Of a DNA stretch of 52,411 nt, positions 15,379 to 27,279 are shown piece by piece. The stretch's first letter is position 1. Every line of letters begins with the position of its first letter. The translations under genes and the position numbers were made by a program. The notes under the pieces are model-generated. The model worked only from the letters and a program-made list of their open reading frames with translations, did not search any database and was not told the origin of the DNA. The stretch is from Candidatus Omnitrophica bacterium CG_4_8_14_3_um_filter_43_15 (lineage in GTDB: Bacteria > Omnitrophota > Gorgyraeia > Taenaricolales > Taenaricolaceae), in NCBI GenBank assembly GCA_002783585.1, contig PFHB01000003.1, positions 1-52,411 of the forward strand, written 5' to 3'.

Positions 15379-15562
15379 GAAGGCGAAGGTTGATAAAGAT
15401 GCATGTATTGGATGTAGTTTGTGTGTTTCTACATGCCCTGAGGTTTTCAAGATGGATGCCGACAAGGCAGTTGTTATAGGCAATTCTGTTCCCGGTGGCG
15501 CAGTGGATTCTGCAAAGCGCGCAGCCGAGGAATGCCCGACTACAGCGATAGCTGTAGAATAA
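15377..15562 (+). CDS. Ferredoxin, single 4Fe-4S type
   Basis: A 61-residue ferredoxin. The N-terminal motif CIGCSLCVSTCPEVF supplies C10, C13, C16 and C20, and the C-terminal ECPTTAI supplies C54. This is the layout of one-cluster ferredoxins, with C20 spare or disulfide-bonded. The start is TTG at 15377, six bases after GGAGG; no ATG is available. It closes the redox cluster and may serve the flavin reductase or the Fe-S proteins. Confidence 0.88.
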   Translation: MKAKVDKDACIGCSLCVSTCPEVFKMDADKAVVIGNSVPGGAVDSAKRAAEECPTTAIAVE

Positions 15563-15592
15563 AAGCCAACTTTTTTACTCTTAACATTTTTC

Positions 15593-15635
15593 TTGACAAT
15601 AAAGCCCCGCAATGTTATATTTAGTTGCGGGGCTT
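15593..15635 (+). promoter_or_regulatory. Promoter with 11-bp inverted repeat across the -10
   Basis: TTGACA at 15593-15598 and TATATT at 15616-15621, 17 bp apart. The perfect arms AAGCCCCGCAA (15602-15612) and TTGCGGGGCTT (15625-15635) bracket the -10 box. It could be an operator in DNA or, less likely, a hairpin at the very 5' end of the transcript. The downstream ATG is at 15642. Confidence 0.65.
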
Positions 15636-15641
15636 ATTGTT

Positions 15642-16013
15642 ATGGAAAAAAACTGTGTAATCTGCAATAAAATATTTACGCCTACCAAATACAGGCCACA
15701 GGCCCAGGAGGTCTGCTCGGATCCTGTTTGTCAGCACAAAAGACAGCTCGAAAACATGAAAAGATGGCGCCGTAATAATCCTCATTACTTTAGGCAGGAT
15801 GAGATAAGAGGCGTTTACTGGAGAGAACTATACCGCCGCAGGATACGAAGGTGGCGTAAGGAGCACCCTGAATATTTTAAGAAATACAGGGACAGGTACA
15901 AGGCCCAGCACAGGGAATATATGCGTGAATACATGAGAAGATACAGGAATGTGAAGAAAAGAATGTTGCAGCAGGCAGAGCCGCAGCCGCCAATCAGCGA
16001 TATTTTGTCTTGA
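15642..16013 (+). CDS. Small, very basic zinc-ribbon-like protein
   Basis: A 123-residue protein. The N-terminus has CVIC and, about 20 residues later, CSDPVC, a plausible four-Cys zinc site. The rest is dominated by Arg, Lys, Tyr and Trp in a repeated pattern (NPHYFRQDE, HPEYFKKYRDRY, HREYMREYMRRYR), which suggests nucleic-acid binding. I do not recognise a named family. I start at ATG 15642; the frame is open to 15612 but that lies inside the promoter repeat. It is alone between two operons under its own promoter. Confidence 0.65.
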   Translation: MEKNCVICNKIFTPTKYRPQAQEVCSDPVCQHKRQLENMKRWRRNNPHYFRQDEIRGVYWRELYRRRIRRWRKEHPEYFKKYRDRYKAQHREYMREYMRRYRNVKKRMLQQAEPQPPISDILS

Positions 16014-16039
16014 CACTAGTAATATATATATGATAAATT
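16010..16039 (+). promoter_or_regulatory. Possible promoter for the second efflux operon
   Basis: TTGACA at 16010-16015 overlaps the stop codon of the previous gene. A TG-extended -10-like TAAATT lies at 16034-16039 (spacer 18). The -10 is weak, and TATGAT at 16029 is an alternative with a short spacer. Confidence 0.4.
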
Positions 16040-16106
16040 GTAGTAAAATTAACGCACTAGAATTCCCCCGACAAAATGGCAGAAAGAAAAAGAAAGGAAA
16101 TTTTCT

Positions 16107-18176
16107 TTGACCAGGCGTGTATTTTTCTTTTTAATCTTTTTGTTGGCAATAACGCTACCGGCCTTTGCCAGGCCTTCAAGTTCATCTGATTTTCTTATCC
16201 TGCTTGATATTACCGCGCAAAATAACCCGGATTCAGCCAGAATAACCATATATACAAATAAATTTCTTGAATATGTAGATTACGAGCTTCAGGATGGCTC
16301 GGGCGGCATTGTTTTTGACCCTACAGAACCTTTATATGTAAATATAGAAGGCCTGAATTTTGATAAAAGCGGCATTATCAGCGGAATGAAATTTGCCAAA
16401 AGCGCTATCAAGCAGGATGATTTACCCGAGGTGTTGAAGGCGGGTTTTTACCCGTTGGATTATCTGGTTATAAATTTAAAACTTAAGTCCGGTTACAGGA
16501 TATCGCAGCGGGCGAATATGATTGTTTTGGATATAGGAAATACTGCGATGCCGCTGCCTTCAGAATTTGTGCCAAGTTTTACATTAAAGCCTGCGCCTGT
16601 GCCAAAAAAAGAGGTTGCTTCAGGAGCAGGTTTGCTGCCGGAAGATATTGCAGCGGAATTTATAAAAACAAAACAAGGCAAAAAACAAGATAAGAAAAAA
16701 GAAAAGAAATCAAAAAAGAAACAAGAGCCGTTGGTTGAAAAAGTGTCCTTGCCGCTCCCGGCTTTAAGCCCGCAAGAGGCCGTGGCAATGGATTTTAAGC
16801 GCCTTAGGGAGGAGATTTTATCCAGGTCGCTTTCCGGCAAACCATCTTTAAAATTGCCGCAAGGCAGAAATGTACTTGGCTTTAATCAGTGCGTTGAAAT
16901 AGGAACCACTAATTTTCTGCCGCTTGTTATTGCCGAAGAGGAAATGAGGCTTGGCGATATGAAAATCAATGAAGCCAAGCGCGGGATTTATCCTACAGCC
17001 ACCGCAAAATATACTACAACAGACGGAGAAACGCTTGGGGTTGAGTTTACCGAAAAATCTTATGGCATGCAGGTTGAGCAGCCTCTTTATTACGGAGGCC
17101 GGCTTAAATTAACATTAAAACAGGCCCAGATAAACCGTCAGGTTGCCCAGTCGAAATTCGACAAAGCTGAAGCCGATGTGGTGTCAAAGATTACAGAGGC
17201 ATTTTACGGCCTTGCTACAGCGCAACTTAATCTCGAGGACCAGAAGGAATTATTCGTAAAATCAAAAGAGATGCTTGCGCTTGCCGAGAAAAAATATAAT
17301 CAGGACCTTACAACGAAACTGGAGCTGTTAAATGTCCAATCGCAATGCAACCAGATAGATTATCAGCTTGCTGTTGCAGCCAAGGATGTTGATATTGCAA
17401 AGATAAGCCTTCTTCAGGCAATGGGCACAGACCCTCAGGCTGACATTCGAGCCGATATGCCGCTTGATTACGCCGAGAATATTATAGATATTAACAAATG
17501 CCTTTTACTTGCATACCAGAACAGGCCTGAGTTGCATATGAATGAACTTCTGCGGGAGGCCGCGGAATATGAAGAGAAGATAGCCAGGTCAAAGGATGAT
17601 TTTAAGGTTGATTTTACAGGATTTGTCGGCCAGTCGGGCGGCGCGTACAAAACAGAACCGTTAAATATGGGCAGTGACTGGTATATGGGATTTAAGGCGT
17701 CAAAGCCATGGCTTGGCAATACGGGTTCTTATAATTATACGCAGAATAAAACAAGCCCTAAATTAGGCCAAAGCACAAGGACAGGAGGTACTAGCCAATC
17801 TCTTGAATTCGGCATACTGAATAATATGACGGCTTATTCTGAAAAGCAGTCCGCCTTGATAAGCAAGCTTAAAGCGGAGAATGAACTTGTTGAAATAGAA
17901 AAGGCGATAAACACCGAGGTGCGCGAAACCTACAGCAGCTATGAAAAAGCTATTATGCAGATACAGAATACGCAGGAGAAGATAAGGTTCAGGCAGGAAG
18001 AACTTAATACATTGAAGGCGCAGTCGGAAATAAACGAGGCCGCCTTGTCGCAGGTGCTTGACGCGATGGTAAAGCTTAATGATGAAAAGGCATTATACCA
18101 CCAGGCTATAGCAAGCTACAAGACCGCTTTGGCGAATTTAAACAAGGCAGTGGGGCTGATAGGGTATTTCAACTAA
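16107..18176 (+). CDS. TolC-like channel with N-terminal AMIN-like domain
   Basis: A 689-residue protein. Signal peptide 1-21 is followed by an AMIN-like beta domain at about 28-145 (ITIYTNKFLEYVDYEL; YPLDYLVINLKLKSGY), the kind that binds peptidoglycan in AmiC and PilQ. Then come a Pro-rich linker and a Lys-rich tract at about 189-205, and from about 255 an outer membrane efflux domain with two OEP repeats. Typical TolC is about 450 residues. The fusion suggests a channel also anchored to the cell wall; this is inference. The start is TTG, eight bases after AAGGAA. It precedes an RND adaptor and two permeases. Confidence 0.82.
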   Translation: MTRRVFFFLIFLLAITLPAFARPSSSSDFLILLDITAQNNPDSARITIYTNKFLEYVDYELQDGSGGIVFDPTEPLYVNIEGLNFDKSGIISGMKFAKSAIKQDDLPEVLKAGFYPLDYLVINLKLKSGYRISQRANMIVLDIGNTAMPLPSEFVPSFTLKPAPVPKKEVASGAGLLPEDIAAEFIKTKQGKKQDKKKEKKSKKKQEPLVEKVSLPLPALSPQEAVAMDFKRLREEILSRSLSGKPSLKLPQGRNVLGFNQCVEIGTTNFLPLVIAEEEMRLGDMKINEAKRGIYPTATAKYTTTDGETLGVEFTEKSYGMQVEQPLYYGGRLKLTLKQAQINRQVAQSKFDKAEADVVSKITEAFYGLATAQLNLEDQKELFVKSKEMLALAEKKYNQDLTTKLELLNVQSQCNQIDYQLAVAAKDVDIAKISLLQAMGTDPQADIRADMPLDYAENIIDINKCLLLAYQNRPELHMNELLREAAEYEEKIARSKDDFKVDFTGFVGQSGGAYKTEPLNMGSDWYMGFKASKPWLGNTGSYNYTQNKTSPKLGQSTRTGGTSQSLEFGILNNMTAYSEKQSALISKLKAENELVEIEKAINTEVRETYSSYEKAIMQIQNTQEKIRFRQEELNTLKAQSEINEAALSQVLDAMVKLNDEKALYHQAIASYKTALANLNKAVGLIGYFN

Positions 18177-18286: not shown

Positions 18287-19600
18287 ATGGCCGCATTGAT
18301 AAAAAAAAGATTTAAGGGTTGGGGGGTTGTGCTTATTGTTATTGCCGCTCTGGTTATTATGTTTGTTGTTTACGCGGCGCCGATAGCAGAGCATTTATGG
18401 AAAGTTTTTCCAGGTATCGCAAATTTTTCTTTTGTTTCCAATCTTTTAAAAGACAGGGTAATACAAAAGTCAGGCGCTCAGTCCGCAGGCCAAGAGCAGG
18501 AAGGCGGCGCAGCCGGAGCCGAAGAAAAACAGAGGCCGGTGTCAGTTATAGTATTTAAAGCGGTAAAAAGCGATTTTGAAGATACTCTTCTAGCCATGGG
18601 CACAATAAAGGGCGTCAGAGAAATAGAGCTCAGGTTCGAGGCAAACGGCGTTATAGACGCCATTAATTTCAGAGAAGGCGATTTTATAAAAAAAGGCGAT
18701 GTAGTTGCGGTTTTGAACCAACAGGACGCCATATTAAAACTGGAATATTCGCAATCAAAGCTTAAAACAAGCCAGACGCAGATGCTTACGGCCAAGAAAA
18801 AACTTGAGATACATCAGAAGTTATACGAGTTGGGCACCATTATTAAATCAAAACTCGAAGAAGTGGCTCTTGAATATGAAAACACAAAAAGCCAGGTGAC
18901 ATCCGCTGAAAAAGAGGTGGCGTTTGCCAAACAGGAAGTGCAAAAGGCTTATATATCTTCTCCTATTGACGGTATTATCGGCGAGCGCGAGGCAGAGGCA
19001 GGCGAATTTGTTACGTCAAACACAAAGATAGCAACTGTTATAGATGTGTCGAGTGTTTATGCTGAAGTCGGAATTATTGAAAAGGATTTGCAGAAGATAG
19101 CCCTGGATATAGAGGCAACAGCTACTGTAGACGCGTATCCTGATGTGGAATTTAAAGGAAAGATCGATAATATACTTCCTACAATAGAAGGAAAATCAAG
19201 AACAATAACCTGCAGGATTAAAATAGATAATCAGGATGGCATGCTTTTGCCGGGGATGTTTGTGAGGGCGACTATTTTTGTATTTGGCCAGAAAGATGTA
19301 ATAGTGCTGCCAACCCCGAATAATACACTGCGCGATACGGATAATGACGGAAAATTTGATTCTGTTTTTGTGGTTGATCAGGATAACGTCGCGCATCTTA
19401 AGCCTGTGGAAATAAGTTATCTTACTACTGATAACGCGGTGGTTGTTTCGGGGCTTGAAGAGGGCGAGCAGGTTGTTACAGAGGCAAGGGCTGAGCTTAG
19501 CGATGGCGCGCCGGTTGAAGTTTTGGAGACGCAGGAGGGGCTTAAGCCTCAGGAAGAGCTTCCGGGAGCAGGCGGAGAAAAAGAGATGGTGATACAGTAG
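18287..19600 (+). CDS. RND efflux periplasmic adaptor (HlyD family)
   Basis: A 437-residue membrane-fusion protein with one N-terminal transmembrane anchor (about 12-31). The lipoyl half-motif EANGVIDAINFREGDFIKKGD is followed by a full helical hairpin (about 145-215), then the second half SSPIDGIIGEREAEAGEFV and a beta-barrel domain. Unlike the adaptor at 2669 it keeps the hairpin that meets the outer channel. Near residue 350 it has DTDNDGKFD, an EF-hand-like calcium loop. It connects the AMIN-TolC channel upstream with the RND permeases downstream. Confidence 0.88.
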   Translation: MAALIKKRFKGWGVVLIVIAALVIMFVVYAAPIAEHLWKVFPGIANFSFVSNLLKDRVIQKSGAQSAGQEQEGGAAGAEEKQRPVSVIVFKAVKSDFEDTLLAMGTIKGVREIELRFEANGVIDAINFREGDFIKKGDVVAVLNQQDAILKLEYSQSKLKTSQTQMLTAKKKLEIHQKLYELGTIIKSKLEEVALEYENTKSQVTSAEKEVAFAKQEVQKAYISSPIDGIIGEREAEAGEFVTSNTKIATVIDVSSVYAEVGIIEKDLQKIALDIEATATVDAYPDVEFKGKIDNILPTIEGKSRTITCRIKIDNQDGMLLPGMFVRATIFVFGQKDVIVLPTPNNTLRDTDNDGKFDSVFVVDQDNVAHLKPVEISYLTTDNAVVVSGLEEGEQVVTEARAELSDGAPVEVLETQEGLKPQEELPGAGGEKEMVIQ

Positions 19601-19698: not shown

Positions 19699-20376
19699 AT
19701 GGAAGAGAAAAAGCAGGCAGCACAGCAGCCTTCACCAAAAAAGAGAAACGATTCAGTTATTTTAATTATATTGGCTGGGATATTAATAGTTATTTTTGCT
19801 TTTATGGTTGCTAAATTGTTGAATACAAGCAAGGCCTCAAAGACAGAATCGAAAACCGTGCAAGCTTCCGAACCTGCTGTGCAAGAAAAAGTGATGCCTT
19901 ATCCTGAAGAGCCAGTATCTATGCCTGATGCAGATATAACCGAAGGCGAGGCTGATATGGAGCAGCTGCCTGCAGAATACGCAAAGGCGCCAAGCGATGC
20001 GGAAGGTTTTTTTCAGACAGGAGAAGATCTTTATTACAAAGGGGATTTTGATGCGGCAATAGAGAGTTTTAAAAAGGCAATCGAGCTTGACTCGCAATAT
20101 GCTGACGCGTATTGCGAGATGGGCGTTTCATTTATGGAAAAAGCCGATTGGGATACTGCTATAGCCCAGCTTAACAAGTGTATAGAAATAAACCCGAATC
20201 AACCAAAGGCGCAGTATGCAATAGCGGTTAGCTACGCCAGAAAACCAAGCCCTGATGTTGCGGCTGCAAGAGAGCATTTTGAGATATCAAAAAAATTAGG
20301 TTTTGTTTATCCGCAATGGTTTGAGGATTTTTTAAAGCGCCTTGAAGCAGGCGAGCGCTTCCCAGGTCAAAACTAG
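19699..20376 (+). CDS. Membrane-anchored TPR protein in the efflux operon
   Basis: A 225-residue protein. A short cytoplasmic tail is followed by one transmembrane helix (about 20-41), an acidic linker (about 70-100) and two to three TPR units (AEGFFQTGEDLYYKGDFDAAIESFKKAIEL; YCEMGVSFMEKADWDTAIAQLNKCIEI; a third partial). TPRs mediate protein contacts, and the location between adaptor and permease suggests a periplasmic assembly factor for this pump. That role is inference. Confidence 0.8.
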   Translation: MEEKKQAAQQPSPKKRNDSVILIILAGILIVIFAFMVAKLLNTSKASKTESKTVQASEPAVQEKVMPYPEEPVSMPDADITEGEADMEQLPAEYAKAPSDAEGFFQTGEDLYYKGDFDAAIESFKKAIELDSQYADAYCEMGVSFMEKADWDTAIAQLNKCIEINPNQPKAQYAIAVSYARKPSPDVAAAREHFEISKKLGFVYPQWFEDFLKRLEAGERFPGQN

Positions 20377-20446: not shown

Positions 20447-23400
20447 ATGTCGTTACCCGATTTTTCGCTAAGACGGCCTATAACAGTCATAATGGTTTTT
20501 ATAGGCGTAATTCTGCTGGGGTTTATCTCATGGAGCCGCCTTCCGCAGGAGCTTTTTCCTCCTATTACCTATCCGCAGCTTACCGTAGTTACCACATATA
20601 AAGACGCAGCCCCCGAAGAAATAGAAATACTAGTCACGAAACCCTTAGAAGAAACCATAGGCACAGTAAGCGGCCTAAAGCGCATAAGCTCTGCCTCCAA
20701 GGAAGAGACTTCTATAATAACCGCGGAATTCAACTGGGGCACAAATATGGATTTCGCTGCCCTTGGCGTAAGAGAAAAGATAGATCTTGTAAAAGAACGC
20801 CTGCCAAGGGGCTCTGAAGAGCCGGTTGTAATGAAATACAATCCGTTTGATCTGCCGGTTATGGTTTTAAATATTACATCGGACCTGCCGCCTGCTGAGG
20901 CAATGCAGTTTGTGCGCAAGGTTATAAAAAACGAGCTTGAAAAAACAGACGGCGTGGCAGTAGTGCAGCTCTCAGGCGGAAGGGAGCGCGAGATACTTGT
21001 TGAGGTGGATCAGGGCCGGCTTCAGGCAGCCGGCATTTCTGTTGTTGCTTTGAGCGAGGCCTTAAACAAGGCAAACCTTAATTACCCGGCAGGCACTATA
21101 GAGGAATCTTTTTATGAATACCTGATAAGGACCATAGGAGAGTTTAAGGCGGTAAATGAAATAAGAGACGTCCCTGTTGTTGTGGACGAGATACCTGTCA
21201 ACCCCAGAGAAGAAAATCCTCAGGAGCAGGGTATCCGGCCGCCAAAAGACAAAAAAACCGAAAAGAGGCTCATCCTTATAAAAGATGTCGCGGTAGTGAA
21301 AGATACGCTGCGGGAGCGTTCCAGTATATCAAGGTATAACGGCAAAGATAATATTTCCATTTCAGTAATAAAACAGGCAGGCGCTAATACTATCTGGGTC
21401 GCCAATAATGTCAGAGAGACAATCGGAGAATTAAAAGCCAGCATGCCTGCTCATGTAAAACTTAATATTGCATATGATCAGTCAAAATTTATAAAAGGCG
21501 CTGTTGGCGGCGTAAGAGATGCCGCTGTGCAAGGTGGATTTCTGGCGTTTATAGTGCTTTATATGTTTTTACGGCGATTCAGTTCGTCTCTGATAGTTAC
21601 CGCCAGTATTCCGATATCCATACTTGGCGTATTCAGCTTGATGTATTTTTCAAATATATCGCTTAATATGATTTCTTTAGGCGGCTTAGCGCTTGGCGTG
21701 GGCATGCTCGTAGATAACGCCATTGTTGTTATGGAGAATATTTCACGCTACAAGGAGGCCGGTAAAAATCCAAAGGATGCCAGTGTTGCCGGCGCTAAAG
21801 AAGTGGGTTCTGCGATAACAGGCTCTACGCTGACAACAGTAGCGGTGTTTCTGCCGATGGTATTTGTTATCGGCGTTGCCGGCCAGTTATTTAAGGAGCT
21901 TGCATTTACAGTGGTAGCGTCATTAATGGTTTCATTGATTGTGGCCTTGACATTGATCCCTATAATGGTGTCAAAAGAAGCGCTTAATAAATCAAAAAAT
22001 AATATACTGCCGGTTTCATTTAAAAAGTATCTGGCGCTTACTGAAACGTTTTTTGTTAAATTAAGTTTATCGGTTAAAGAATCTGTTTTGTTTATCAAAC
22101 TCAAAGAAGCGCTTTCCCTTGAGAACGCGAAAAGGGTTGTATCTTCGTCGTTGAGATTTTTCCTAAAGCACAGGATAATATGCCTGCTCTTGGTTTTTCT
22201 TGTATTTTTCATCAGCATATTTTTTCTGATAAATATGGATTGGGAATTATTGCCAAGGGTTGATCAGGGCCAGTTTATAATCAAGGTTGACCTGCCTCCC
22301 GGCACACGGCTTGAGGTAACGGATTCGGTAGTCAAAAAAATAGAGAAAGAGCTTTTTTCTCTGCCTGAGGTAAGCGATATAACGGTTACTATAGGCTCAA
22401 GCAGGGAAAAGATCTCAGAAGGCCCTATGATAGAGACGCTTGGGTCGAATCAGTCACAGATTATGGTTTTACTTAAATCTTTGGCAGCGTATAAAAAGAC
22501 AAAATATCCGCTGTTACAGTTTTTGATTGAACCTTTTTCCGTTAAAGACCCAAAGAAGGTCCGCACTCGTTCAACAGGCGAAGTGCTGCAGAGTTTGAAA
22601 TCGTCTCTTGAAAAAGACAATCTTTTCGGCGCCGATGTCCAATATATATTACAAGAAAGCGTTTTTCAGAATGCCTTTAGTAACGCCGCGCCTGTGGTTA
22701 TAGAAATAAAGGGGCATGACCTGTTGAAAATAAAGGCCATATCCGACGATGTTGAAAAGAACCTGGAAAAAATAAAAGGCGTCTATAGCGTAAGGTCTTC
22801 TTTTATAAAGCCCGCGCCCGAAGCAAAGGTATATGTCAAAAAAGACAGGGCAGCCGCTTATAACCTGTCGGTAAGCGATATTGCCCTTACTTCGCAGACA
22901 GCCATGAAAGGCTATGTTGCCACAAAATATAAGGAAGCAGGCAGGGAAATTGATGTAAGAGTGCGCTTAAGGCCGAAAGACCGTTCCGATATTAATAAGA
23001 TAAGAAGGCTTCTTGTACATTCGCCGCTTGATATCGACGTGCCTCTTGCCGAGGTTGCTTATATGAAAATAGGCAAAGGCCCCAGCCAGATACAGCGCCT
23101 GGCGCAACAGAGGGTTATAATGGTGTCAGCCGGCATATATAAAAGGCCATACAAAGAGGTGGTCGAAGATATTAATATTTTTCTCGCCCGGATGAAGTTA
23201 AGCCTGCCGCCTGATTACAGCGCAAAACTTACAGGTGAAAATCTGCAGATGAAAGAGTCGTTTGACAGCCTGCGTTTTGCGCTTATACTTTCTCTGTTTC
23301 TGGTTTACATGATTATGGCCGCGGAATTTGAATCGTTGTGGCAGCCGTTTATAATATTATTTACATTTCCGCTGTCTTTGATAGGCGTATGTTTCGGGTT

Positions 23401-24187
23401 ATGGGTTACAAACACGGCTATTTCTATAATGGTTTTACTGGGCATTATAATCCTGGGAGGCATAGTCGTAAATAACGGCATAGTGCTGGTTGAATATGTG
23501 AATCTGCTGCGCGGCCGCGATAATTTTAACCTTCACGACGCGCTTATAGAGGCAAGCCAGATGCGGCTTCGGCCTATATTAATGACAGCGCTTACCACTG
23601 TGCTAGGCCTTTTACCTTTGGCAATAGGCCTGGCTGAGGGCGCTGAGATTCAGATTCCGATGGCAGTAACTGTTATGTCCGGTTTGACTATTTCAACTTT
23701 TCTGTCTTTAATAGTTATTCCTTTATTATATTTAAGTTTTGAAAAGTCTCTTGCTGCTGCCATGGGTTTATTTTTCGGCGCGCCACAACAGGTAAGGCTT
23801 GAATTTGAACCTGAATATAAGCCCAAACCCAAGCCCGAATATAAGACATCAACTATAATACACCTGCCTCACAGGCGCGAGCCTTCGCCGCAGATATCTG
23901 CTATAAATCTGCCGCATCAGGAGGAAGCGCCATCTGAGCGCGATGAAAGCCGCATCTTTTTTAAAGACGTGCTTCCCGATAAATACAAGTCTATCGAACT
24001 TACCGACAGGCAGAAAGAACTTATTTTATATTTAATACAGAATGACAGGATAACGCGCCCGGAATATATAATAAAATTAAATGTTTCTGTTGCCACCGCC
24101 GCAAGAGATATAAAGGATATGCTTGATAGAGGGCTGATAAAAACATGCGGCCCCCAGGCAGTGGGCAGATATTATGAACTCGCCTAA
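20447..24187 (+). CDS. RND efflux permease fused to a C-terminal winged-helix domain
   Basis: A 1246-residue protein. Residues 1 to about 1100 are a complete HAE1-type permease (first helix after FSLRRPITVIMVFIGVILLG; TM4 GMLVDNAIVVMEN with D423, N424). Then come a Pro-rich cytoplasmic linker with PKPKP and two similar IxLPHxxE segments, and at 1184-1246 a winged helix (ELTDRQKELILYLIQND, RPEYIIKLNVSVATAARDIK, DMLDRGLIK). Family members end near residue 1050. RND C-termini face the cytoplasm, so this would be a membrane-bound DNA-binding pump. The frame is continuous and the next gene starts 2 bases later. Confidence 0.85.
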   Translation: MSLPDFSLRRPITVIMVFIGVILLGFISWSRLPQELFPPITYPQLTVVTTYKDAAPEEIEILVTKPLEETIGTVSGLKRISSASKEETSIITAEFNWGTNMDFAALGVREKIDLVKERLPRGSEEPVVMKYNPFDLPVMVLNITSDLPPAEAMQFVRKVIKNELEKTDGVAVVQLSGGREREILVEVDQGRLQAAGISVVALSEALNKANLNYPAGTIEESFYEYLIRTIGEFKAVNEIRDVPVVVDEIPVNPREENPQEQGIRPPKDKKTEKRLILIKDVAVVKDTLRERSSISRYNGKDNISISVIKQAGANTIWVANNVRETIGELKASMPAHVKLNIAYDQSKFIKGAVGGVRDAAVQGGFLAFIVLYMFLRRFSSSLIVTASIPISILGVFSLMYFSNISLNMISLGGLALGVGMLVDNAIVVMENISRYKEAGKNPKDASVAGAKEVGSAITGSTLTTVAVFLPMVFVIGVAGQLFKELAFTVVASLMVSLIVALTLIPIMVSKEALNKSKNNILPVSFKKYLALTETFFVKLSLSVKESVLFIKLKEALSLENAKRVVSSSLRFFLKHRIICLLLVFLVFFISIFFLINMDWELLPRVDQGQFIIKVDLPPGTRLEVTDSVVKKIEKELFSLPEVSDITVTIGSSREKISEGPMIETLGSNQSQIMVLLKSLAAYKKTKYPLLQFLIEPFSVKDPKKVRTRSTGEVLQSLKSSLEKDNLFGADVQYILQESVFQNAFSNAAPVVIEIKGHDLLKIKAISDDVEKNLEKIKGVYSVRSSFIKPAPEAKVYVKKDRAAAYNLSVSDIALTSQTAMKGYVATKYKEAGREIDVRVRLRPKDRSDINKIRRLLVHSPLDIDVPLAEVAYMKIGKGPSQIQRLAQQRVIMVSAGIYKRPYKEVVEDINIFLARMKLSLPPDYSAKLTGENLQMKESFDSLRFALILSLFLVYMIMAAEFESLWQPFIILFTFPLSLIGVCFGLWVTNTAISIMVLLGIIILGGIVVNNGIVLVEYVNLLRGRDNFNLHDALIEASQMRLRPILMTALTTVLGLLPLAIGLAEGAEIQIPMAVTVMSGLTISTFLSLIVIPLLYLSFEKSLAAAMGLFFGAPQQVRLEFEPEYKPKPKPEYKTSTIIHLPHRREPSPQISAINLPHQEEAPSERDESRIFFKDVLPDKYKSIELTDRQKELILYLIQNDRITRPEYIIKLNVSVATAARDIKDMLDRGLIKTCGPQAVGRYYELA

Positions 24188-24189
24188 AT

Positions 24190-27100
24190 ATGGGACTTCC
24201 TAAAATATCAATAAATAGGCCTATAGCAGTGCTTATGCTTTACACGGGCATAGCGCTTATGGGTATAATATGCCTTTTGCGCCTGCCTATAGAGCTTATG
24301 CCTAATTACAGCTTCGGCGACATATCCATTTATGTTGATATACGCGGAGGCATGCCGCCTGTTGAAGTTGAAAATCTTGTTTCAAGGCCTATAGAGGAAT
24401 CAGTCGGCACAGTCAGCCTTTTGCGTGATTTGATATCCATTTCAGAAGAGGGCCGTTCGCGCGTGGTGCTTACTTTTGAGCCGGGCACAGATATGGATTT
24501 TGCGGCGCTTGAAACAAGGGAAAAGTTTGCCAGGGTAAAAAATAAACTCCCGCCGGAAATAGAAAAACCCGTTATAGCTAAATTTGAACAGTCAGACCTG
24601 CCTGTTTTAAATCTTGCTATAACAGGTGAGGGCTATACAACCGAGATGCTGCGCCGCCTGGTGGATGACCAGATAAAAGAAAGGCTTCTGCGTATAAACG
24701 GCGTTGCCAATATTGACGTCGGAGGCGGCCGCGAAAGAAAGATTCTGGTTGAAATAAACCAGCAGAAGCTGCAGGCCTTTGGCCTGCCAATAGGCAAGGT
24801 GATAAATCAGTTAAGCCTTAATAATCTTAATCTTTTAATCGGAGATGTAAAAAGGCAGCATTATAAATATATAGCGCGCGCCATAGGCGAATTCAGGACC
24901 ATAGAAGAGATAAAGAATATAGGAGTGGCGGTTGCGCCCAGCGGAGCCATAATACGCCTAAAGGATGTGGCCAGCGTTGAGGATTCATATCTTGAGGCAA
25001 CAAGTTTTTCAAGGGTTGACGCCTTGCCGGTCGTGTCATTATATGTGCAGAAGGAATCAACAGCCAATACCGTAAACGTCGCAAAAAATGTTTTAGAGGA
25101 AGTTGATAATATAACTTCGCAGCTTAAAGATATAAGAATAATACCCACCTATAACCAGGCTGAATACATAAAACGCGCTATTGATGAAGTCAAAAAATCC
25201 CTCATTTACGGCGCCATGCTCGCTATTTTGATACTGTTTTTATTTTTAAGGGAAATAAAATCAACTTTTATAATAGGTATCGGCATACCCATATCTGTCA
25301 TAGCCACTTTCAATCTTATGTTTGCGCAGAAAATAACTTTAAACGTTATGACTTTAAGCGGCCTGGCGCTGGGCACAGGCATGTTGGTGGATAACGCTAT
25401 TGTTGTGCTTGAGAATATATATAAAATGCGCGAACGCGGCGTTAACAAAATACTTGCGGCCGCATTCGGCAGCGAAGAAATGCATCTTGCCATAGTGGCA
25501 TCTACAATTACGACGATAGTGGTATTTTTACCGATAATCTTTGTTAATAAAGAAATAAGGATATTGTATTCAGGCCTTGCAATGACAGTAACGTATTCTC
25601 TGATAATATCTCTTTTTGTAGCGCTTACTTTGGTGCCTATGCTTGCGGCAAGGCTTCCCGGAGGCCGCAAAAAAGAAAATAAGATAGAAAAAAATATTCA
25701 GGAGGTAATTGACAGCGAGGATGTCATACCTGTCAGGGCGTTAAAACATCCGGGTATTTTTTGCAGGTTTTACAGGTCTTTTTTATCAACTTTTATACGT
25801 TACCGGTATTTCTTCCTGTTGGCGGCATTTCTGGCATTTGTGATAACTATTGCGCTTGTGGTGCCTAAAATACCGAAAGAATTTATAGGCACAACCGAAC
25901 AGGAGGATTTCACAATTTATGTCGAGCTGCCCACAGGAGCAAAGCTGGGCATATCCGATAAGGCCGTGGAAAAGATAGAAGAGGTTGTTTCCGCGATGCC
26001 TGAAATAAAGACGGTTTCGTCGAGAATTGAGCCGTGGTCTTCAAAGGTTTTTGTAAAGCTCGTCCCGTTAAATGAAAGGACCCAGACAACCAAAGAGGTA
26101 ATAAATTCTTTAAGGCCAAAGGTACAGGAGGTTGAAAAATTATTTAAGGAGGCCTTTATATATTTTGAAGAGCCGCAGGAGATCGAGACCAACGAATTGA
26201 TACTTGAAATATACGGTTATGATTATGATGTGTTGAATCAGCTGGCGGTTGAGATGCTTACAAGGATGCAGAGGGTTGAAGGGTTAACTGATTTAAAGAT
26301 ACGCTGGAGAAAAGGCAGGCCTGAATGGCAGCTGGTTGTTGACAAGCAAAAGGCCGCCGGATTCGGGCTTACGGTAAAAGATGTGGCTGATACAGTGCAT
26401 GCCCAGATGAGGGGTTTAAGAGCGACATTGTATCACACCGAAAGCAAAGAGGTTGAGGTGGTAGCCAGGCTGCGCAAGGATGATCGAAAGACATTTGATA
26501 TGGTGCGTAAGCTTTCCCTTGCCCTGCCAAACGGCAGGCAGATTACGCTGGATCAGGTTGTAAACTTTGTGCCTGAGACAGGCCCCAGTAAAATATGGAG
26601 AAAGAATAAAAACAGGATGATACAGGTTTCTGCCAATAGGGGATACCTGGCCTTCGGAGCCGCGGCCGAAAAGGTTAAAGCGCAGCTTAAGGATATGAAG
26701 TTTCCACTAGATTATTACTGGAAGTTCGGAGAGAATTACTGGAGGATGGTGAGAAATCAACGGGAGCTTTCGTTTGCTATTTTTTTGACGATAATTCTGA
26801 TATATCTTGTTTTAGCTTCTTTGTTTGAGTCGTTTACACAGCCATTTATTATTATGGCTACTGTGCCGTTGGCTGCCATAGGCGTTGCCCTGGCGCTTGA
26901 TATTTTTAAAAAATCGATAAACATCGGCGTACTTATGGGTGGCATGATGCTCGGCGGCATCGTTGTTAATAACGCGATCATACTTATAGATGAGATAAAC
27001 CGCCTCACCGTAAAAGGGATAGTAGGCATAAAGGCTGTTTTGATAAGCGGCGAGAGCCGTTTGCGGCCTATAATGATGACAACATTGACTACCGTGCTAG

Positions 27101-27279
27101 GGCTTTTGCCTATGGCTATTGACAGAAGCGCTGAAGCAAATCTTTGGTCGCCTCTGGCAATAACAGTTATAGCAGGCTTAAGCACTTCAACGGTCCTTAC
27201 CCTTGGCTTGGTCCCGTGTGTTTATCTTGTCTTTCTGGATGTTAAGCGCATGTTTAAGAAGAGATACGTTTTGAATTAA
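24190..27279 (+). CDS. RND efflux permease, second of a tandem pair
   Basis: A 1029-residue HAE1-type permease of normal length without a C-terminal extension. TM1 follows ISINRPIAVLMLYTGIALMG, and TM4 carries GMLVDNAIVVLEN (D401, N402). It starts 2 bases after the winged-helix permease, as in MdtB/MdtC-type systems where two different permeases form one mixed trimer. Only one adaptor and one channel gene are present, which supports such a mixed pump. Confidence 0.9.
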   Translation: MGLPKISINRPIAVLMLYTGIALMGIICLLRLPIELMPNYSFGDISIYVDIRGGMPPVEVENLVSRPIEESVGTVSLLRDLISISEEGRSRVVLTFEPGTDMDFAALETREKFARVKNKLPPEIEKPVIAKFEQSDLPVLNLAITGEGYTTEMLRRLVDDQIKERLLRINGVANIDVGGGRERKILVEINQQKLQAFGLPIGKVINQLSLNNLNLLIGDVKRQHYKYIARAIGEFRTIEEIKNIGVAVAPSGAIIRLKDVASVEDSYLEATSFSRVDALPVVSLYVQKESTANTVNVAKNVLEEVDNITSQLKDIRIIPTYNQAEYIKRAIDEVKKSLIYGAMLAILILFLFLREIKSTFIIGIGIPISVIATFNLMFAQKITLNVMTLSGLALGTGMLVDNAIVVLENIYKMRERGVNKILAAAFGSEEMHLAIVASTITTIVVFLPIIFVNKEIRILYSGLAMTVTYSLIISLFVALTLVPMLAARLPGGRKKENKIEKNIQEVIDSEDVIPVRALKHPGIFCRFYRSFLSTFIRYRYFFLLAAFLAFVITIALVVPKIPKEFIGTTEQEDFTIYVELPTGAKLGISDKAVEKIEEVVSAMPEIKTVSSRIEPWSSKVFVKLVPLNERTQTTKEVINSLRPKVQEVEKLFKEAFIYFEEPQEIETNELILEIYGYDYDVLNQLAVEMLTRMQRVEGLTDLKIRWRKGRPEWQLVVDKQKAAGFGLTVKDVADTVHAQMRGLRATLYHTESKEVEVVARLRKDDRKTFDMVRKLSLALPNGRQITLDQVVNFVPETGPSKIWRKNKNRMIQVSANRGYLAFGAAAEKVKAQLKDMKFPLDYYWKFGENYWRMVRNQRELSFAIFLTIILIYLVLASLFESFTQPFIIMATVPLAAIGVALALDIFKKSINIGVLMGGMMLGGIVVNNAIILIDEINRLTVKGIVGIKAVLISGESRLRPIMMTTLTTVLGLLPMAIDRSAEANLWSPLAITVIAGLSTSTVLTLGLVPCVYLVFLDVKRMFKKRYVLN

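Follow-up and report, generated by a model that had tools for sequence, protein, structure and literature searches.

The window, a stretch of 52,411 nt from Candidatus Omnitrophica bacterium CG_4_8_14_3_um_filter_43_15 (GCA_002783585.1, contig PFHB01000003.1, forward strand), encodes an RND permease that ends in a winged helix, and among its relatives this tail is accompanied by a recurring 11-bp word, AACCGTATCAT. Judged from these sequence patterns, the protein may be a membrane-tethered, sequence-specific DNA-binding pump that would use AACCGTATCAT for promoter control and origin anchoring. We hold this explanation, in which the tailed protein is the permease subunit of a tripartite RND exporter, with moderate confidence.

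The tailed permease and its operon

The tailed gene (20447-24187, +) is a single uninterrupted frame of 1246 aa, referred to as RND1, and stands in the following context:

15612-16013, +: Zn133, a small Cys-rich basic protein and candidate alternative regulator (no Pfam family above cut-off)
16014-16106, +: pump promoter region, with zero copies of AACCGTATCAT (best PWM score below 0 in 15540-16120)
16107-18176, +: outer-membrane efflux protein (OEP), first structural gene of the pump operon (Pfam OEP, E 1.3e-37)
18287-19600, +: HlyD/CusB-type periplasmic adaptor (Pfam HlyD_D23, E 1.3e-31)
19699-20376, +: TPR protein with one N-terminal hydrophobic segment (Pfam TPR_11, E 6.2e-19; relatives in L148 and L154)
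20447-23740, +: RND permease body, residues 1-1098, of RND1, the first of two RND genes (Pfam ACR_tran, 12 hydrophobic segments)
23741-23995, +: linker predicted to be disordered, residues 1099-1183 (pLDDT 62-75; dN/dS 0.40; orthologue lengths 49-521 aa)
23996-24184, +: C-terminal winged helix-turn-helix, residues 1184-1246 (HTH_24; pLDDT 92-97; dN/dS 0.076)
24089-24127, +: predicted recognition helix, residues 1215-1227, VATAARDIKDMLD (AlphaFold2 helix H116-128; alignments)
24190-27279, +: second RND permease, RND2, untailed and 3' of the tailed gene (Pfam ACR_tran, E 2e-223)

The original prediction of a complete 12-helix permease is borne out by a full-length ACR_tran match (residues 5-1098, profile positions 3-1020/1021, E 3.9e-230) and by 12 hydrophobic segments, the last of which ends near residue 1094; the tail has no such segment. 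By its sequence the body is thus a complete RND permease, for which substrate export is predicted; the NCBIfam model RND_permease_2 reaches 636 bits, under its subfamily cut-off of 1250. The OEP and HlyD genes upstream of RND1 form an arrangement also found in relatives, and RND2 starts two bases past the RND1 stop.

The C-terminus of RND1, which we take to be cytoplasmic by homology to AcrB, continues into a flexible arm of about 85 residues, where about 80 had been anticipated; its low-confidence model indicates that residues 1099-1183 are probably disordered. The winged helix that follows scores 22.6 bits with HTH_24 when the tail is scanned alone, above the Pfam gathering score of 21.9, and 17.8 bits, below that cut-off, when the full-length protein is scanned, while 21-22 of 27 homologous tails match HTH_24 or HTH_DeoR. 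AlphaFold2 models the domain at pLDDT 92-97 in the order helix-helix-helix-wing. The top Foldseek matches in the PDB are an AspA-DNA complex, AdcR, Fur, MecI and the C-terminal domain of a Fic protein; against winged helix-turn-helix structures the probability is 1.00 and the best E 1.4e-3, no match reaching E 0.001 because the domain is short. A search of the PDB with the tail profile retrieved Fic, AdcR and other winged helices, in keeping with the suggested likeness to the C-termini of Fic-type and DeoR-like regulators. The winged helix at residues 1184-1246 is genuine, and the arm that carries it is flexible and cytoplasmic.

Estimated across seven close relatives, dN/dS comes to 0.063 in the body and 0.076 in the winged helix, against 0.404 in the linker. 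Across orthologues the linker ranges from 49 to 521 aa and differs in kind, being Pro/Glu-rich or, in L012 and L024, a coiled coil. A fast and variable linker joined to a winged helix constrained like the body is what would be expected of a tether with a functional domain. The invariant tail residues are R1188, R1204, A1218, R1220 and G1235; the predicted recognition helix holds two of these, and this helix and the wing are the most conserved parts of the tail. In relatives the recognition helix has the consensus (I/V)PTAARDLKxL, and the net charge of the winged helix in the window is only +1. Two unusual frames occur among the relatives: an RND1 whose tail follows a 521-residue linker of Pro/Glu repeats, in a 1659-aa open frame (L006:5995-10971), and RND1 and RND2 joined in one 2073-aa open frame (L022:2864-9082).

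Spread of the tail among Omnitrophota

Relatives were taken from named genomes and a genome set, and a class-wide profile scan of 292 genomes at a domain threshold of E <1e-18 found the tail domain in 60 of them, in 16 families of the class sample. Tailed orthologues are widespread in Omnitrophota. A phylum-wide scan added further families as well as a genome (G293) from a different class; the tail was not found in Elusimicrobia, Firmicutes, KSB1, other homologues and several Omnitrophota lineages. Wherever the gene is complete, the operon has its fused tail on RND1 and never on RND2; the gene order is OEP-HlyD-(TPR)-RND1-RND2 or, in one branch, RND1-RND2-HlyD. On the best RND1 tree (87 rows) the tail trait requires at least five changes, two of which are forced by well-supported branches, which would allow the tail to have been gained early and then lost. 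Apparent stand-alone soluble copies of the domain in G017, G175, G162 and G376 were rejected as contig-edge fragments; G233 is the single genuine case of the domain unlinked from the pump.

Several features of the regions upstream of pump genes were noted alongside. In family f19 a ROK-family regulator with an N-terminal winged helix is encoded immediately 5' of the pump operon (L005:1513-2802, L002:1469-2755). A terminator-like hairpin (GGGGGTAACC...ATCCCCTTTTTTT) lies just 5' of RND1 in L192, L191, L014, L016 and L011 and is common to several lineages with RND1 as first gene of the operon; Rfam holds no family for this leader hairpin. Leaders of family f17 (L162, L163, L155) have AGCAAAAGGAATTGCGTaAgATG in common around the OEP start codon, a possible hairpin presenting AAGGA in a CsrA-like manner.

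An 11-bp motif accompanies the tail

The word AACCGTATCAT is repeated in the regions upstream of OEP-headed tailed operons; at up to two mismatches, and mostly in two or more copies, it was found in all such promoters examined apart from the two f17 ones, and it is almost absent from untailed pump promoters. Genome-wide the word is rare: tailed genomes hold 0-9 exact copies, with low counts for reversed-word controls. Neighbouring copies on the same strand lie 11 bp apart, one helical turn, in 44 of 89 pairs within 40 bp. Scanned in its tandem form (ACMRTATCA-N0-4-ACMRTATCA), the motif occurs in 39 of the 292 genomes, with two matches for the reversed control. These are 36 of 60 tailed and 3 of 232 untailed genomes, all three exceptions belonging to the tailed family f19; by family the figures are 13 of 16 versus 0 of 36. 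The association has a Fisher p of 1.5e-26 by genome and 9e-10 by family, both values ignoring shared ancestry, and such co-occurrence counts overstate independence. Supported branches of the RND1 tree offer only two independent contrasts, which puts phylogenetic significance out of reach; both usually agree with the link between tail and motif, and no fused-tail pairing on the tree contradicts it. Several tailed genomes (some of f18, f14 and f44, and G109) hold no tandem copy, and f18 promoters carry degenerate copies.

Natural variants bear on the same link. Family f17 keeps the tail with PLPVADREL in its recognition helix in place of IPTAARDL; here the tandem motif occurs in 1 of 11 genomes, compared with 35 of 49 other tailed genomes, the origin loci hold at most one weak match, and promoter and origin regions share no alternative word of at least 11 bp. 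In G233 a tail-less RND1 shares its operon with a separate 431-aa protein (L189:2640-3932, -) that consists of a hydrophobic N-terminal segment, predicted to span the membrane, a coiled coil of about 280 residues and the same winged helix, its start codon, orientation and topology being uncertain. Near the operon, a stretch of 2.4 kb immediately downstream holds 12 motif copies where 0.03 are expected. As G233 keeps the motif with the domain off the pump, the motif follows the domain and not the fusion. In the genome of the window the helix begins VATAARD, and a shifted form of the motif, AACAGTATCAT, is the commoner one with 9 exact copies (control 0), weak evidence from the sequence of a single case that helix and motif may have changed together.

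Where the motif sites lie

Across families the motif recurs in three places, namely the OEP promoter, the dnaA-rnpA-yidC-jag-(mnmG)-parA-parB region and the operon of a large signal-anchored protein. At the promoter, by eye, sites overlap the -10 or +1 of a consensus-like OEP promoter in f6, f23 and f32, which suggests repression, and in f19 a tandem abuts the -35. In the window, 15540-16120 holds no copy, so the motif is unlikely to mediate binding at the window's pump promoter, and the proposal of 16014-16106 as the target region is not supported.

In the origin region, sites or arrays were found in f1, f3, f6, f10, f19, f20, f23, f32 and f42, positioned either within yidC or parA or in the interval from jag to parA. 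Arrays within coding sequence occupy yidC in f1, f6, f23, f32 and f42 and parA in f3, and some sites adjoin a parS-like TGTTCCACGTGGAACA (L214, L215). The yidC of the window genome has 8 copies (expected 0.02), and untailed genomes have no comparable cluster at parA. Arrays of this type, embedded in yidC or parA, are those at L311:938-1671, L219:2359-2560 and L315:2428-2594; in YidC they read as repeated DTV residues.

The third place is upstream of an operon encoding an 81-84 aa two-segment membrane protein and the large signal-anchored protein, here BigSec, two members of which have a C-terminal Peptidase_C39 domain; in the window genome, too, the motif stands at a secreted-protein gene. Upstream regions of the BigSec genes at L209:3342-5999, L207:787-3075 and L265:1-2148 (-) hold the motif.

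A second candidate regulator

Zn133 is present in 10 of 11 untailed genomes tested, usually directly 5' of the pump operon, and in only 3 of 23 tailed genomes (p 2e-5, with ancestry shared among genomes). The window genome, whose pump promoter is without the motif, is one of the three that have both. On the simplest reading of these gene contents, Zn133 and the tail would be alternative regulators of the same operon. Zn133 itself was rejected as the usual binder of the motif, since 17 of the 20 genomes tested that have a canonical tail do without it, as do most motif-bearing genomes. Zn133-type genes also stand beside the pump operon in L158, L169, L173, L175 and L194.

Proposed mechanism and alternative explanations

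In the mechanism that we favour, the winged helix on its flexible cytoplasmic arm would recognise AACCGTATCAT, usually as tandem copies one helical turn apart, at the pump operon promoter in most tailed lineages, in the dnaA-rnpA-yidC-parA-parB region and at operons of large signal-anchored proteins. The pump would in this way hold a small number of selected loci of the chromosome at the inner membrane, most likely repressing or tuning pump and secretion genes at promoters and most likely serving as a centromere-like anchor at the origin. The fusion and its conservation are observed, as are the motif, the places where it lies and its co-occurrence with the domain; we infer from these that the motif is bound by the tail, that the tail stays joined to the membrane as it binds, and likewise what binding brings about. 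The broader suggestion that the protein regulates transcription from the membrane or tethers the nucleoid gains indirect support from the sites in pump promoters and the arrays at the origin, and loses its proposed instance at the promoter of the window itself. The fullest version, in which the trimeric pump would be both a chromosome anchor at the origin and ParABS and a regulator of the pump and secreted-protein operons, is tentative and on balance rather doubtful; if true, export, envelope gene expression and chromosome positioning would be coupled in one protein.

A narrower account has a real chance of being correct, if not quite a probable one: the tail would work as a one-component regulator at the membrane and mainly repress its targets, a small regulon that comprises yidC/parAB besides the pump operon and the large secreted protein, and proximity to the origin would be incidental. 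Sites over the -10/+1 or at the -35 of OEP promoters and upstream of BigSec operons speak for it, as does the near mutual exclusion of the tail and Zn133, which occupies the same place and could plausibly regulate, as though either had taken over from the other. Against it, the origin copies are often arrays inside yidC or parA, away from promoters, and such arrays within coding sequence fit operators poorly and are reminiscent of the ram sites of RacA. The tail might instead act after release, the linker being cut under some condition to yield a soluble repressor, as in YtgCR; long, fast-evolving Pro/Glu-rich linkers and the precedent of a repressor domain cleaved off a fused permease (PMC7755916) fit this idea, but it appears unlikely given that inspection of the linkers by eye revealed no conserved cleavage motif, that some linkers are coiled coils or just 49 aa long, and that the unlinked domain of G233 retains a predicted transmembrane segment.

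The motif binder could also be another protein that co-occurs with the tail. The tail would then be a protein-interaction or stability module and the motif would belong to a DNA-binding protein inherited with the pump. The winged helix of FeoC has been proposed to be such a module, winged helices can mediate protein contacts and ESCRT-II is among the fold matches, and the low net charge of the domain and the few independent phylogenetic contrasts point the same way. We nevertheless regard this account as improbable, as conservation is highest in the recognition helix and the wing, the closest structures are winged helices that are DNA-bound or regulatory, and the motif is nearly lost where the helix has changed (f17) and kept where the domain has left the pump (G233). 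That an error of assembly or annotation joined the pump gene to an unrelated one is scarcely credible: the window does come from a single metagenome-assembled genome, but the same fusion is carried by dozens of independent assemblies from many families, which excludes a frameshift joining two genes and confirms what the intact frame and the closely following second permease had already indicated.

Relation to known systems

The literature searched contained no RND permease with a DNA-binding tail, an absence that does not prove novelty, and a survey of Omnitrophota mentions neither RND nor efflux (PMC10066038). New here is a candidate DNA target, AACCGTATCAT, that tracks the tail at the level of sequence. 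A candidate protein, a candidate site and natural variants, in which the tail is lost, the helix changed or the domain unlinked, are all found within one phylum, which makes the question of whether a pump reads or holds DNA a testable one.

With HAE-1 type RND permeases (ACR_tran, PF00873; NCBIfam RND_permease_2) the window protein shares the full-length match and the tripartite OEP/HlyD operon, and differs in its C-terminal winged helix, which lies outside the family models. The closest sequence relatives of the tail are the C-terminal winged helices of Fic and AlbA_2/RecG-like proteins, found in the same genomes and in the PDB, although these sit on soluble enzymes or ATPase-like proteins and match the tail profile at E 1e-16 or weaker. 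CadC and ToxR, which are sensors and not pumps, span the membrane once and have their DNA-binding domain at the N-terminus. They resemble the tailed pump in that this domain is attached to the membrane, and membrane-integrated CadC finds its chromosomal DNA targets from the inner membrane (PMC7888679). Chlamydial YtgCR likewise combines a permease and a C-terminal DNA-binding domain in a single polypeptide, from which the repressor domain is cleaved off (PMC7755916); it differs in pairing an ABC permease with the iron-dependent repressor YtgR, whereas the window protein is an RND exporter that is not known to be cleaved and has a winged helix of a different family, of HTH_24/DeoR type.

Proteins that connect the chromosome directly to the membrane are few (PMC6593407). 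In Bacillus subtilis, RacA tethers DNA to the membrane via ram, centromere-like elements that are dense near the origin (PMC6593407). Both systems feature an HTH protein and repeated motifs, the candidate copies described here being concentrated near the origin as well; by analogy, however, where RacA reaches the membrane through DivIVA, the covalently attached pump would itself be the membrane part.
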